Source: Chloroherpetonaceae bacterium
GTDB taxonomy: Bacteria; Bacteroidota; Chlorobiia; Chlorobiales; Thermochlorobacteraceae
NCBI GenBank assembly: GCA_033763895.1
Contig: JANRJQ010000013.1
Location: 1-62,416, forward strand
Reading direction: 5' to 3'
Length of the DNA stretch: 62,416 bases
The notes beneath the pieces were generated by a model. It was given only the letters and a program-made list of their open reading frames with translations. It had not been told where the DNA came from and made no database searches. Position numbers and translations under genes: made by a program. Positions 8,287 through 14,665 of the stretch are shown here, piece after piece. Position 1 is the first letter of the stretch, and each line of letters starts with the position of its first letter.

Positions 8287-10581
8287 TCAAGCATTCAGTT
8301 TTATGACCACAATTGTAAGATCGTCATTGACCGAGCCACCATCGGCAGTAAAGGCATTAACGGCGTGGAAGATATCCCCTTTAATTTCAAAAGCGCTTTT
8401 CTCTTTTGATTTTTCTACTGTCGAGAGCAAATTTTCATATCCAAATTGATCTCCATTACGAGAAACTGCTTCAATAACGCCATCGGTATAAAGAACAAGC
8501 ACATCACCCGGTTTCATAAAAATGCGTTGCTCAGAAACAGCACGCTTAAAGAGTTCACAGCCATTACTCTTATCCAGCCCTAAAGCAAGGCCGCTCATCC
8601 GTAAAACCCCGGAGCCTTTGCTATGGACAAAAGCAGGAGGGCAATGGCCTGCATTGGCCACCAGCACGCTGTTATCGCTAGAACGAATAACGGCATAAAG
8701 AGCACTTACAAATGCCCCCTTATCAAGTCCTTTGGTAATGGCTTCATTGGCACGAATAAGTAGTGACTTGGGGTCGTCAGGATAAATGCGGCAGAGCGAT
8801 TGAAAGATGCCTTTCATCTCCGCCATATAAAAGGCTGCTGAGGTTCCCTTCCCCGAGACATCTGCGATCACGACTCCGGCATCCAAAACCGTTGTGCCTT
8901 CATTGAGTTGTGCAAAATCGTAATAATCGCCCCCTACCTCATAAGCTGGATATGAAACGCCATCAATGTCAAATCCCGGGACTAAAATGGCCGATTGCGG
9001 GAGAAGTTTTAATTGAATTTTTTGAGCCACCGAAAGTTCTTGCTCTAGCCGCTTTTTATCGATTAACTCGCGAATCAATCGGGAGTTATCAATTGCGATT
9101 GCGGCTTGATCGGCGAAGGTTGTCACCAGTTCGATGTCTTCTTTGACAAAACCATATTCGACATCTTTAGAAACATGTAAAACACCAATGATTTTGCTAC
9201 GGGCAATCAGTGGCACAGACACCATTGAAGCGATTTCACCTCGGGACTTTTGAGAAAGCTGCGAACGCAATCGAAGCGCAAGTGACTTTTTGGTTGACGC
9301 TTCAGGGTTTAAACGCTTATCCAGCAATACATCATCGATTCGGACCGGACGCTTTTCTGCTAAAATTCCACTCCAAATAAATTGAGATGATTTAGAAAAA
9401 TCGTGAATCGTTTTTAAATCAATATTCTGTTGTGAAACCGTCTTAAACAATCCCCCGCCAGATTGATTTTCTTGAAACTGAACAGTAGGTAATTTCGAAG
9501 CCAATTCCCGCTCTTCATTCATTTTTGATGGAGAAAGTTTTGCTTCAAGCGAATAAGGTTGATAAATATCAAACCATACGGATGCCCCATTTCCGAAAGA
9601 TTCGCTCGCGTAATTGACAAGTGATGAATAAATTTTTTCTTCATCAAAAACATCTGTAATGAATTTGCTCATCGCATAAAGGTTGCGAACTTCTGCAGCC
9701 TTTTTCTCGATTGCTTCGGAGGTTGGTAAATAAAAAAGCAAACTCAAAAAGGCCGTTGAGAGGTAAGCGCCCAAAAAAATCGAAATTGCAAACCAAAAGA
9801 ATGCAGAAGAATTGCTGAAAGCGAGCAGCATTATACCTGCTTCAAAAGCGCCGTAAAGGGAGCCTAAAGCAACCAAAATAGAAATCACTAAAAAAATAGA
9901 GCGCAGCTTATCTCGCCGGCTCATTGGCATAATCCAAGACAATCGAAAAATATTCGTTAGCATCATTGCCCCGCCAACGCCTAAAAGAATGCCCGCAATA
10001 ATATTTGGCTGTTCTCCCGGAAAAGTACCAAGCGAAGCGAGTGCCCCTAGCAATAGAAGACCAATTGTGGTGAGAAAATTGGTTTTGGTGTTTTGCAAAC
10101 GGCGAAAAAGAACCAAGCGCTCTAGCGCAATCAGTCCAAATGAAAGGAATGTCGCTAAAGAAAGGGAAACGATGTGCGATTTAATTACCGCGTAAAGCGA
10201 CCCGGCTACAAGAACTTTGGTCTCCTGCGCTTGTTCAAACGAAAATGTTGCCGGAGACATAACGGTGCTCATTAAACTCAGCACCACAATCATGAGCAGT
10301 AAATAGGTTGTCCCTTTCTTTAAAATTTCAACCGGCTCAATCCACAAGCCCGAGCCATCAGCATTGTTTTCGATTGAAGATGTGGATTTGAAGTAATCGC
10401 GAGAGAAAGAATAGATAACCGCAAAAACGGTTATCGCTAAAATATCTTTAAAGAGCGCAAGCCACGAGAGAATGTAGGGGCTTTTGGCATAGTAAAGCAC
10501 CACATCTATCGTGAATAATAATAGCTCACAGCCAAGTGCAAGCGTAAAGTATAAATATAAACGGCTACGGTTTTTGGTCAT
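8287..10581 (-). CDS. Membrane GAF-PP2C (SpoIIE/RsbU-type) phosphatase
   Basis: A 764-residue sensor phosphatase. The first 290 residues are membrane-embedded, with several hydrophobic stretches (for example FTLALGCELLLFTIDVVLYY and LLLMIVVLSLMS). A GAF domain lies at about 300-500 (SMVSVPLIARSKIIGVLHVS, ITTFADQAAIAIDNSRL in spirit), then a short coiled linker (KKRLEQELSVAQKIQLKLLP), then a PP2C/SpoIIE domain with GGDYYDF, VIADVSGKGTSAAFYM, NAGHCPP and LYTDGVIEA. The metal-binding Asp residues are all present. Such proteins dephosphorylate anti-sigma-factor antagonists in partner-switching stress control. No anti-sigma or antagonist gene is adjacent; the next gene, hsp20, is divergent. Confidence 0.9.
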   Translation of the reverse strand: MTKNRSRLYLYFTLALGCELLLFTIDVVLYYAKSPYILSWLALFKDILAITVFAVIYSFSRDYFKSTSSIENNADGSGLWIEPVEILKKGTTYLLLMIVVLSLMSTVMSPATFSFEQAQETKVLVAGSLYAVIKSHIVSLSLATFLSFGLIALERLVLFRRLQNTKTNFLTTIGLLLLGALASLGTFPGEQPNIIAGILLGVGGAMMLTNIFRLSWIMPMSRRDKLRSIFLVISILVALGSLYGAFEAGIMLLAFSNSSAFFWFAISIFLGAYLSTAFLSLLFYLPTSEAIEKKAAEVRNLYAMSKFITDVFDEEKIYSSLVNYASESFGNGASVWFDIYQPYSLEAKLSPSKMNEERELASKLPTVQFQENQSGGGLFKTVSQQNIDLKTIHDFSKSSQFIWSGILAEKRPVRIDDVLLDKRLNPEASTKKSLALRLRSQLSQKSRGEIASMVSVPLIARSKIIGVLHVSKDVEYGFVKEDIELVTTFADQAAIAIDNSRLIRELIDKKRLEQELSVAQKIQLKLLPQSAILVPGFDIDGVSYPAYEVGGDYYDFAQLNEGTTVLDAGVVIADVSGKGTSAAFYMAEMKGIFQSLCRIYPDDPKSLLIRANEAITKGLDKGAFVSALYAVIRSSDNSVLVANAGHCPPAFVHSKGSGVLRMSGLALGLDKSNGCELFKRAVSEQRIFMKPGDVLVLYTDGVIEAVSRNGDQFGYENLLSTVEKSKEKSAFEIKGDIFHAVNAFTADGGSVNDDLTIVVIKLNA

Positions 10582-10962
10582 GAATTCAATATAAACAAAA
10601 CTCTAAGCCTAAGAGGTGAGCCAAAGCGGATCATACAATAAACATACAATCCATCTTGTCACATTCCCCAAATGAAAAAGTGTCAACCAATAAGTGAAAT
10701 CATGAGATAGCCATCAACATCTCTTTTATTTCGCATTTCTCAAAGAAATGTTTCTTTGTTATAGATCACAAAAAAATTATCCAGAATGAATTGGGTGAAA
10801 ACGATAGCTGCCACTGACAATTCGTCGTGACAGAAGACTGAAGAAAAGGCCGGTATATGAAAAAATAACAGGCGGCAAAAGCGAAAACTGAATTGTTGAA
10901 AACGTGGATGGGAGTTTTCGCTCAAATCAACGAAAAAGGAGCATAAATCAGCAAATGTCCGT

Positions 10963-10992
10963 TTGGCACGGAAATTGAATTATAGGGAGTGA
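10963..10992 (+). promoter_or_regulatory. Sigma-54-like (-24/-12) promoter of hsp20
   Basis: TTGGCACG at 10963-10970 is followed by TTGAA, giving GG-N10-GA spacing (GG at 10965, GA at 10977). The sigma-54 consensus is TTGGCACG...TTGC with GG-N10-GC, so only the -12 C differs. The same 30-bp block occurs upstream of dnaK (12074-12103) with 23 of 30 positions identical. The implied transcript start near 10990 gives a leader of about 125 nt before hsp20. No rpoN gene or enhancer-binding activator gene is in the window. Confidence 0.5.
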
Positions 10993-11103
10993 GAGGTAAG
11001 CAAATAGGGTCAAAGTCTTCGGATACGATTCAAGTTTGTCACATCTCGGAAAATAAAAAGTACTTGAGTTAATTATTTCATTCACAACTTTTCTAATCAA
11101 ACA

Positions 11104-11109
11104 GGAGGA
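11104..11109 (+). promoter_or_regulatory. Strong Shine-Dalgarno of hsp20
   Basis: AGGAGG eight bases before the hsp20 ATG. It stands out because most genes in this window, including dnaK, have no comparable site, and it suggests high translation of hsp20. Confidence 0.75.
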
Positions 11110-11116
11110 TTCAAAT

Positions 11117-11542
11117 ATGTTAGTAAAATTTGATAACGGCAATCCGTTTGCTACAATCGACCGTGTCTTCGACGAAGTGCTTCGTGATAAATTCAATACA
11201 CTCGTTCCACATACAATTTCTTCCTTCCGAGTCGATATTTCGGAAGATGAAAAAAATGTTTTCCTTGAAGCTGAACTACCCGGTATTAAAAAGGAAGATG
11301 TCAAGGTTAGTGTGGAAGATAATGTGTTAACCATCCGTGCAGAGCGAAAGGCTGAAACGGATAACAAAACCAAGAACTTCCGCCGAACTGAACGCTTCTT
11401 TGGTTCATTTTCACGAAGTTTCACCTTGGGTGAAAACATCTCTACGGAAAACATCGAGGCAACTTATACCGACGGGGTGTTAAATCTTCGCTTGGCCAAA
11501 ATCGAGCCTGTTAAAAACATTAAAGAAGTAACGATTCGATAA
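11117..11542 (+). CDS. Small heat-shock protein, Hsp20/alpha-crystallin family
   Basis: A 141-residue chaperone. The alpha-crystallin domain spans roughly residues 35-135: FRVDISEDEKNVFLEAELPGIKKEDVKVSVEDNVLTI, then ERFFGSFSRSFTLGENI and YTDGVLNLRL, the ELPG and GVL motifs being diagnostic. The C-terminal tail is short (KNIKEVTIR) and holds a weak I-x-I-like element. These proteins bind unfolding proteins without ATP and hand them to DnaK. It has a strong ribosome site, its own terminator at 11574-11601, and a promoter block shared with dnaK 700 bp downstream, so the two genes are probably co-induced. Confidence 0.95.
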   Translation: MLVKFDNGNPFATIDRVFDEVLRDKFNTLVPHTISSFRVDISEDEKNVFLEAELPGIKKEDVKVSVEDNVLTIRAERKAETDNKTKNFRRTERFFGSFSRSFTLGENISTENIEATYTDGVLNLRLAKIEPVKNIKEVTIR

Positions 11543-11573
11543 CCGTTTCGCTTTAGACCGTTGATACTTTAAG

Positions 11574-11601
11574 AGCGCTTGGGAAACCAAGCGCTTTTTT
11601 T
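11574..11601 (+). terminator. Rho-independent terminator of hsp20
   Basis: Perfect 9-bp stem AGCGCTTGG / CCAAGCGCT with a GAAA tetraloop, followed by a run of seven T. It lies 31 bp after the hsp20 stop codon. Confidence 0.92.
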
Positions 11602-11787
11602 GTTTTGATTGAGAATTGACGACATTCTACAAGTTCGTGAGCAAAACGGTCACTTCTTAATACCATATTTAAGTCTAATATTTTAGGGAGTTAGTAAAAT
11701 AAATCGGCCATTTTGTTTTTTTAGGGAACCAATTCAACGCAAATAATCTTTTCATCATCAGTTCATAGTTATACTCCTTTTTCAATG

Positions 11788-11831
11788 GCGCTTTCGCAGT
11801 TTCGTTCATTTTCTGCGGGAGCGCTTTTTTT
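11788..11831 (+). terminator. Orphan rho-independent terminator
   Basis: A 12-bp stem (GCGCTTTCGCAG with CTGCGGGAGCGC, two G-U pairs) with a 13-nt loop and seven T after it. The T-run is only on the plus strand. There is no plus-strand gene between it and the hsp20 terminator, so it ends either an unseen small RNA or read-through transcription. Confidence 0.8.
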
Positions 11832-12073
11832 ATTAATCATTTTTTTGAATTCACTTGAATTTTTTTTCCCTTTCTTCAAAGACTCCAAATTCCCACAAAA
11901 TTCAAAGGCCGTTGATGTTTCACGATAGCGAATGAGAAAAACTAGTAAGTAAAATGTCTGTCAATTTGTCTCTTAACAAACTTTTTGTCATAAAACGGCA
12001 ATTCAAACAATTGAAGGGTTCAGAAATATGACAATGAATCGGCAATAATGGCATATCATCAGGAAAGATTTAA

Positions 12074-12103
12074 TTGGCACGACATTTGAACTATAATAAG
12101 TGA
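12074..12103 (+). promoter_or_regulatory. Sigma-54-like (-24/-12) promoter of dnaK
   Basis: TTGGCACG at 12074-12081 with GG at 12076 and GA at 12088, again GG-N10-GA, followed by CTATAATAAGTGA. The block matches the one before hsp20 over 30 bp. A perfect TATAAT also lies at 12092-12097, so a sigma-70-type -10 element overlapping it is an alternative reading. No CIRCE (HrcA) operator is visible. Confidence 0.5.
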
Positions 12104-12237: not shown

Positions 12238-14154
12238 ATGGGTAAAATAATAGGAATTGATTTGGGAACAACCAACTCATGCGTAGCGGTAATGCAAGGC
12301 AGTGAGCCGGTTGTCATTGCAAATTCTGAGGGCTATCGAACAACGCCTTCGGCAGTTGGTTTTGCAAAAAATGGGGATCGCTTGGTTGGTCAGTCGGCAA
12401 AGCGTCAGGCAGTAACGAATCCAAAAAATACGGTTTATTCGATTAAGCGCTTTATGGGTCGTGCGCTTACAGAAGTTACGAGTGAAATGAAACTCGTGCC
12501 TTATGAAGTATTTTCGTCCGATAACAGCGTGAAAGTTCGAATCGGCGATAAGCAATATTCTCCAGAAGAAATTTCAGCAATGATCCTTCAAAAAATGAAG
12601 CAAACGGCTGAAGACTTCTTAGGCGAAAAAGTGACCGAAGCGGTGATTACCGTTCCGGCGTACTTTAACGACGCACAGCGCCAAGCCACAAAAGATGCAG
12701 GCAAAATTGCAGGGCTAGAAGTGAAGCGTATTCTTAACGAACCGACTGCAGCCGCATTGGCTTATGGTTTGGATAAAAAGAAAGCCAGCGAAAGAGTGGC
12801 CGTCTTTGACCTTGGTGGCGGAACCTTCGATGTCTCGATTCTTGAACTCGGCGACGGCGTCTTTGAAGTTCGCTCAACCGACGGCGATACGCATCTTGGT
12901 GGCGACGATTTCGATCAACGCTTAATCGATTTCCTTGCCGATGAATTCAAAAAGCAAGAAGGCATTGATTTACGTAAAGATCCAATGGCACTTCAACGCT
13001 TGAAAGAAGCTGCTGAAAAAGCAAAAATTGAACTTTCATCTCGCACTGAAACAGAAGTGAACCTTCCCTTCATTACCGCTACGCAGGATGGACCAAAGCA
13101 CTTGGTGGTGAATGTAACACGCGCCAAATTTGAAGGGCTCTGCGCCGATCTCTTTGACCGTATGCTTGAGCCTTGCAAACGCGCCCTGAAGAATGGAAAA
13201 GTTGATATTGACCAATTGGATGAAGTGGTGCTTGTGGGCGGTTCAACCCGTATTCCGAAGGTTCAGCAAATGGTGAAGGATTTCTTCAAGAAAGAACCCA
13301 ACAAGAGCGTCAATCCCGATGAAGTGGTGGCCATTGGTGCAGCCATTCAAGGCGGCGTACTCAAGGGTGATATTACCGATGTGCTTCTTTTGGATGTCAC
13401 GCCGCTTTCGCTTGGTATTGAAACCTTGGGCGGTGTGATGACAAAACTCATTGATTCCAATACCACTGTTCCAACGCGGAAATCGGAAACGTTCTCAACG
13501 GCTTCTGATAGCCAAACCTCGGTGGAAATTCATGTGCTTCAAGGCGAACGCCCGATGGCCGTTGATAACAAAACGCTCGGTCGATTCCACTTGGATGGTA
13601 TTCCGCCGGCACCGCGTGGCGTTCCGCAAATTGAAGTGACTTTCGATATCGATGCCAACGGTATTCTCTCCGTTTCTGCCAAAGATAAAGCCACAGCAAA
13701 AGAGCAGAAGATTCGCATTGAAGCGAGCGGCAAACTTTCGGATGCGGAAATTCAAAAAATGCGTGAAGATGCCAAGGCTCATGCCGAAGATGATAAGAAG
13801 AAAAAGGAAGAAGCGGATATCAAGAACACCGCCGATACACTTGTCTTTTCAACCGAAAAGCAACTCAAGGAATTGGGCGATAAACTTCCAACAGATGCTG
13901 CCTCGGGCTTGCAGCGTGCACTTGATGAATTGAAAGATGCACAAAAAACAGGCAGCACCACAGCTATAAAAGCTGCAGTTGAAAAACTAAACGCCGAGTG
14001 GAGCGAAGCCTCGAAGAAACTGTACGAAGGCTCTGCGAACCCGATGGGTGCTTCTGGCCCTAGCGAAGGTGGTAATGGCGCGTCGCAAAAAGGAAGTGCC
14101 GGTAAAGACGGCGAAGTAAAGAACGCTGATTTTGAAGTGGTTGATGATAAATAA
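12238..14154 (+). CDS. dnaK: Molecular chaperone DnaK (Hsp70)
   Basis: A 638-residue Hsp70 of normal length. The ATPase domain begins [18 protein letters not shown] and shows [26 protein letters not shown] and [11 protein letters not shown]; the conserved linker reads [19 protein letters not shown], followed by the beta-sandwich substrate-binding domain and a helical lid with a Gly/Ser-rich tail ending in FEVVDDK. It binds exposed hydrophobic peptides in an ATP-driven cycle with DnaJ and GrpE, neither of which is nearby. There is no clear Shine-Dalgarno before the ATG. Expression is probably heat-induced from the shared promoter block upstream. Confidence 0.98.
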
Positions 14155-14210: not shown

Positions 14211-14284
14211 ATGCCTCTTTTTTGTTTCTTTTTTTCGATATTGAATAAAGGCTTTTGAAGTACAACATTTTAATCATTATTGAT

Positions 14285-14665
14285 ATGCCGATTACTCGTT
14301 CAGGAAATGTGGTGCATAAGTTGGATAAATACTTCATCACACAAGCCAAGCGCGGCGACCGCGGGAAACTGAAACTTACCATTGCCTCAGCCGCCGGTTA
14401 TGGCAGGCTTTCAAACACCGAGGAAATGAAACGCAAATTACAAGAAGGCCAACTTCAAGTGTGTGTGCTTTCCTCAAATGAAGACATTGCGATTCGTACC
14501 GAAGACACGGTTAAACTCAATGAAGAACGCTATAATATGGATTATGATAGCCGTGGTGTCAAGTGGACCGTTCGCGAGATGCAGGTTTTTGTGAATCCAA
14601 ATAACAACGAACTTTCCGTCGAAGTGCGTGGACGCGTTTACACGCTCGACGAATTTTTCAAGTAA
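14285..14665 (+). CDS. Conserved hypothetical protein downstream of dnaK
   Basis: A 126-residue soluble protein when started at the ATG at 14285 (MPITRSGNVVHKLDKYF). An in-frame TTG 30 bp upstream is a poorer choice because it has no ribosome site and adds an unrelated head. The sequence is mixed alpha/beta with basic patches (TQAKRGDRGKLKLT) and no signal peptide, membrane segment or metal motif. I do not recognise the family. It follows the dnaK terminator and has its own terminator at 14781-14809, so it is a separate transcription unit. Confidence 0.7.
   Translation: MPITRSGNVVHKLDKYFITQAKRGDRGKLKLTIASAAGYGRLSNTEEMKRKLQEGQLQVCVLSSNEDIAIRTEDTVKLNEERYNMDYDSRGVKWTVREMQVFVNPNNNELSVEVRGRVYTLDEFFK

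Follow-up and report, generated by a model that had tools for sequence, protein, structure and literature searches.

How are the two heat-shock genes hsp20 and dnaK of this Chloroherpetonaceae bacterium switched on? Both are found on the plus strand of the window (the whole 62,416-nt stretch of contig JANRJQ010000013.1 that was analyzed). The hsp20 gene (11117–11542, +) encodes a 141–amino acid (aa) small heat-shock protein identified through its tblastn relatives, with NCBIfam Hsp18/Hsp20 matches below curated cut-offs; dnaK (12238–14154, +) encodes a 638-aa protein that scores above cut-off for NF001413 and TIGR02350. The closest named DnaK and Hsp20 relatives belong to Candidatus Thermochlorobacter and an uncultured Chlorobiales bacterium, i.e., to Chlorobiales, and a plasmid search revealed nothing beyond dnaK coding similarity. 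A terminator-like hairpin of 12 pairs followed by a T run (11571–11598, +) separates hsp20 from dnaK, and therefore dnaK needs a promoter copy of its own. The divergent neighbor of hsp20 (8287–10581, minus) encodes a protein with GAF and SpoIIE-type phosphatase domains, a possible stress regulator, and the PscD gene of the photosystem P840 reaction center (14255–14665) lies directly downstream of dnaK.

A preliminary description of the region proposed that hsp20 and dnaK share a sigma-54-like promoter block, 23 of 30 bp being identical, with GG-N10-GA spacing in both copies. These figures were reproduced directly from the sequence. The hsp20 copy occupies positions 10963–10992 (TTGGCACGGAAATTGAATTATAGGGAGTGA), and the dnaK copy occupies positions 12074–12103 (TTGGCACGACATTTGAACTATAATAAGTGA). 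Within them, the predicted promoters, each consisting of a −24 element (TTGGCACG) and a −12 element (TTGAA), span 10963–10979 (+) and 12074–12090 (+), respectively. In the 3,546,824-base genome, TTGGCACG-N4-TTGAA-N-TATA occurs exactly twice, upstream of hsp20 and upstream of dnaK. The two exact whole-genome matches of TTGGCACGNNNNTTGAANTATA are the same two blocks; the next best match has two mismatches and is located within an ORF. The preliminary description had also considered that the motif might turn up at random positions across the genome, which is not the case for the exact block.

The literature consensus TGGCAC-N5-TTG[AC]A has nine exact matches genome-wide, six within ORFs and three intergenic, the latter corresponding to hsp20, dnaK, and one possible small-RNA locus. 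At this third site (TTTGGCACGCTATTTGCA; L003, G000:C4:920738-920753, minus), which is downstream of a glutamate-dehydrogenase-like gene, a terminator-like hairpin is present ~85 nt past the motif with no ORF, making it a candidate sigma-54-dependent small RNA. When one mismatch was allowed, the loose consensus TGGCAC-N5-TTGMA was found 104 + 96 times genome-wide compared to 39 + 36 times for the reversed pattern, but such counts are uninformative since codon usage can inflate them. Transcription from sigma-54 promoters starts ~12 nt past the −12 G. With this start assumed, the leaders would be ~127 nt for hsp20 (ATG at 11117) and ~138 nt for dnaK (ATG at 12238), close to the 125 to 137 nt estimated earlier.

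To judge by sequence comparison, the strongest evidence against a chance origin of the block is its conservation in relatives. The region upstream of dnaK was compared in 30 Chlorobiales genomes including the source genome, with minus-strand loci re-oriented. One locus (L063), whose contig ends before the expected site, was left out, so that 28 other relatives and the two window copies gave 30 promoters. The family labels used for these genomes (Chlorobiaceae or Chloroherpeton-type) were deduced from kinship and genome features. The core (T/C)TGGCA(C/T)(G/A)-N4-TTG is complete in all 30 hsp20-dnaK promoters, with the GG-N10-G spacing fixed, and these promoters make up 30 of the 31 occurrences of the core in 283,678 bases of hsp20-dnaK loci. 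Chlorobiaceae have hsp20 next to dnaK, and the promoter is located ~560 to 590 bp before dnaK; in a genome that has no hsp20 ahead of dnaK (L084), it is found 184 bp before dnaK itself.

The second base of the −12 GC is not fixed in Chlorobiales: the −12 G is followed by A in 17 promoters, by T in 7, and by C in 6. The best argument for regarding these promoters as sigma-54 dependent comes from the six orthologues with the classic TTGC at −12, which also show that GA is an ordinary variant. The suggestion in the preliminary description that GA at −12 marks a weak promoter does not agree with these data, as GA is the commonest form in the order (17/30) and is also present in four of the five Bacteroidota groES promoters examined. 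Judged from these alignments, GA is a normal variant for the lineage that reflects lineage tolerance, and weakness is not implied. With the −12 GC relaxed to GA, GT, or GC, standard sigma-54 predictors could miss real promoters in this phylum.

Blocks similar to the hsp20 promoter were also detected ahead of hsp20 in Kapabacteria and in some other Bacteroidota loci. At Kapabacteria/Ignavibacteria hsp20 loci (L119, L120, L123, and L136), the upstream sequence is TTGGCAC(G/A)-N-TTTTTCA, a −24 element combined with a different −12 (CA). Nitrospira-type hsp20 loci (L126, L131, and L165) contain TTGGCACCNTCNATGCA, a classic sigma-54 match, ~225 to 235 bp before the matched hsp20 segment.

Both rpoN and enhancer-binding proteins, which the preliminary description had proposed to look for, are encoded in the genome. 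The single-copy rpoN (C11:91243-91719) has all three sigma-54 Pfam domains (AID, core-binding, and DNA-binding), and six PF00158 genes encode sigma-54 activators. No rpoH/sigma-32 is apparent among the eight sigma-70-family genes, which on inspection of their sequences comprise one housekeeping and seven ECF-like factors. A candidate activator was chosen by its presence and gene neighborhood. In proteins of its class (own-genome copy at C10:425116-426471), the PF00158 domain starts at residue 12 to 14 and is followed by a conserved linker and a C-terminal Fis-type HTH_8 domain; there is no N-terminal sensory domain. No activator class other than this receiver-less one is common to the source genome, the Chloroherpeton-type genomes, and those Chlorobiaceae that encode only three activators. 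Of the 198 Bacteroidota genomes sampled, 188 contain it as a single copy at a strict threshold.

The receiver-less activator gene has groES-groEL within a few kilobases in five other families of Bacteroidota, and groES is preceded there by TGACA half-sites and TTGGCAYR-N4-NG[AC] sigma-54-like promoters, GA at −12 being present in four of these five promoters. In the other 15 activator neighborhoods fetched, groES was not nearby. The activator gene is ~8 to 12 kb from hrcA in many Chlorobiaceae. In the source genome, it adjoins hisH and hisA, not chaperone genes, and thus the activator-chaperone linkage is not universal. At L225:5500-7526 (minus), the candidate activator gene overlaps hisH by 4 nt, with hisA following, an unexpected neighborhood. 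No combination of TGACA and a sigma-54 site that would suggest autoregulation was found upstream of the activator genes fetched.

Among all 5-mers in the 200 bp before the 30 Chlorobiales promoters, TGACA is the most frequent. TGACA or TGTCA occurs 99 times in these 6,000 upstream bases compared to 14.9 ± 3.7 expected from dinucleotide shuffles (maximum of 27), figures that overstate independence since the 30 upstream sequences are related. The sites cluster near −38, −46, −57, −67, −78, −88, and −98, and the vector strength of their spacing peaks near 10.5 bp (0.54, a figure without a null comparison), i.e., near helical repeats. The best dyad spacing, TGACA-N3-TGTCA, was found 32 times compared to 2.4 times in mononucleotide shuffles, and a perfect CTGACA-ATG-TGTCAG is present at a Chloroherpeton-type hrcA (L317). 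When 31 genomes were searched for TGACA-N12-42-TTGGCAYRN4TTG, 20 matches at 18 places were obtained, compared to none for the reversed control; 11 of the places are hsp20-dnaK loci, 6 are within ORFs, and 1 is intergenic. This sole intergenic match off hsp20-dnaK (L305, G027:C31:100657, minus) has no ORF downstream. TGACA half-sites with near-helical spacing would be as expected of an activator enhancer.

In the window, two putative TGACA half-sites are located upstream of hsp20, at 10815–10819 (+) and 10828–10832 (+), 148 and 135 bp before the block, the motif being enriched in orthologous regions. Upstream of dnaK, putative half-sites are found 115, 88, and 45 bp before the block: two in the inverted form TGTCA, at 11959–11963 (−) and 11986–11990 (−), and one TGACA at 12029–12033 (+). 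The window thus has fewer sites (two at hsp20 and three at dnaK) than its relatives, and the hsp20 sites, at 135 to 148 bp, are farther from the block than in most relatives; both points count against the reading preferred below.

Could the block be something other than a sigma-54 promoter? It could belong to a promoter for sigma-A or an ECF factor, with a TATAAT-like sequence at 12092 and TTATAG at 10981, and its −24/−12 likeness could be coincidental. This would fit the TATA sequence right after TTGAA in both window copies and the full TATAAT at dnaK. However, TATA is not kept across orthologues, while TGGCA and TTG are invariant and their spacing is fixed; a sigma-70-type promoter scan revealed nothing at either block; and a sigma-A promoter would not be expected to have enhancer-like repeats. 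We therefore consider this explanation very improbable. The least probable of the readings considered is that the block is a CIRCE/HrcA-, HAIR/HspR-, or other-type repressor operator rather than a promoter. HrcA is encoded in the genome and is probably acting there, as one perfect CIRCE, the sole genomic copy at up to three mismatches, is found upstream of groES-groEL. Yet the window has no CIRCE (TTAGCACTC-N9-GAGTGCTAA) at up to three mismatches, and none of the five three-mismatch matches to HAIR (CTTGAGT-N7-ACTCAAG) is near hsp20 or dnaK. Moreover, the block lacks inverted-repeat symmetry, and its −24/−12 spacing and its polarity relative to the gene are strictly kept. An RNA thermometer (ROSE and similar) or riboswitch in the leaders was rejected as well, as Rfam gave no match at E values up to 1; the fold z-scores of the leaders (0.33 and −0.15) indicate that they are not unusually stable.

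A less remote, though still unlikely, alternative keeps the sigma-54 promoters and assigns their activation to any one of the remaining five enhancer-binding proteins, which are of the receiver type, with the signal arriving via a two-component system. The genome does contain six activators, and the identity of our candidate was arrived at by elimination and neighborhood only. On the other hand, sequence comparison revealed full-length matches in every reference genome compared for the receiver-less class only; Chlorobiaceae with three activators retain the TGACA sites along with the promoter of hsp20-dnaK; and in other families TGACA sites precede groES near the receiver-less activator.

The reading that we prefer, with a probability of roughly 0.8, is that the blocks are sigma-54 promoters of two separate heat-shock units opened by the receiver-less activator at TGACA sites. 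The presence of rpoN, no sigma-32 found, the lack of CIRCE and HAIR at these genes, the invariant core, and the enhancer-like repeats support the shared sigma-54 promoter of the preliminary description. The block is very probably a promoter of the −24/−12 type, and sigma-54 RNA polymerase, together with a dedicated activator, most likely turns on hsp20 and dnaK. The block, rpoN, the conservation, the enhancer motif, and the activator distribution are computed observations.

From these data, we infer that sigma-54 is used in vivo, that the activator binds TGACA, and that heat is the signal. RpoN polymerase would form an inactive closed complex at TTGGCACG-N4-TTGA. The receiver-less AAA+ enhancer-binding protein would bind the upstream TGACA half-sites and loop to the polymerase, and its use of ATP would open the promoter, probably upon protein-folding stress. 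If the analogy with PspF holds, the activator may plausibly be restrained by an inhibitor protein, which could be a chaperone.

The block was also to be sought at other stress genes, and sigma-54-like sites with TGACA were found before hrcA-grpE-dnaJ in relatives and before groES in the five other families. In all 10 other non-Chlorobiaceae Chlorobiales genomes examined, [TC]GGCA[CT][AG]N4TTG is located upstream of hrcA, at most 70 bp from its start and in most cases with TGACA sites. No such core was found upstream of hrcA in 19 Chlorobiaceae. A sigma-54 promoter at hrcA of the source genome (L307, G000:C4) was rejected: the −24/−12 core is not intact there and looks degraded, with TGACA kept at −101, −78, and −57. 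A sigma-54-like promoter of its own precedes dnaK in the source genome; one other genus has such a promoter as well, in the form of a GGAAC variant. The probable sigma-54 chaperone arrangement, which differs from the textbook heat-shock switches of bacteria, is conserved across Chlorobiales and apparently extends to the wider Bacteroidota.

A broader proposal, to which we would give even odds, is that one receiver-less sigma-54 activator, found in ~95% of the Bacteroidota genomes sampled, serves the whole phylum as master heat-shock activator, recognizing TGACA-N3-TGTCA enhancers, with targets that shift among hsp20-dnaK, hrcA-grpE-dnaJ, and groESL between lineages. If so, in several lineages this activator would also drive the hrcA operon and thereby stand above HrcA, the repressor. 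Chaperone induction in Bacteroidota is poorly described, and no sigma-32 was found here; the promoter, enhancer motif, and candidate activator supply a testable circuit spanning green sulfur bacteria and other Bacteroidota.

The preliminary description called heat-shock control by a −24/−12 promoter unusual. This is correct when compared to Escherichia coli and Bacillus but does not hold more widely. In Flavobacterium psychrophilum, a member of the same phylum that likewise has −24/−12 promoters at chaperone genes, sigma-54 (motif SM4) transcript starts have been mapped at groESL, dnaK, grpE-dnaJ, clpB, htpG, and lon (PMC9723704), and a position-matrix study predicts sigma-54 control of GroEL, GroES, Hsp20 (IbpA), GrpE, DnaJ, and DnaK in Bacteroidota and Planctomycetota (PMC12316311). 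In the parts of the latter study drawn on here, Chlorobiia feature only in connection with nitrogen fixation, and no enhancer or activator is proposed for the chaperone cluster. We found nothing on sigma-54 heat-shock control in Chlorobi in the open-access literature searched. Sigma-54 chaperone promoters as such are already known; what is new relative to that literature is their probable occurrence in Chlorobiales, together with the TGACA enhancer motif and the candidate activator. For the Myxococcus HsfA activator, a possible precedent, the literature found gave no confirmation, and it is not used as evidence.

Like PspF-type proteins, the candidate activator consists of an N-terminal AAA+ sigma-54 interaction domain and a Fis-type HTH, with no N-terminal sensory domain; unlike them, it carries an additional linker, which contains a conserved LIYRALIQLQTDMSQIK segment, ahead of the HTH, and no adjacent psp genes were seen. 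The CIRCE/HrcA system is present in the same genome, where it probably acts at groESL, and is absent from hsp20 and dnaK. By locus tag, an F. psychrophilum activator gene is four genes from groES (THC0290_0733 and 0729). Starts were mapped in that organism and are predicted here, and the portion of the F. psychrophilum report considered (PMC9723704) names no enhancer motif or cognate activator. The two also differ in their targets: here, groESL is under CIRCE, and the sigma-54 sites are at hsp20-dnaK and, in relatives, also at hrcA-grpE-dnaJ.
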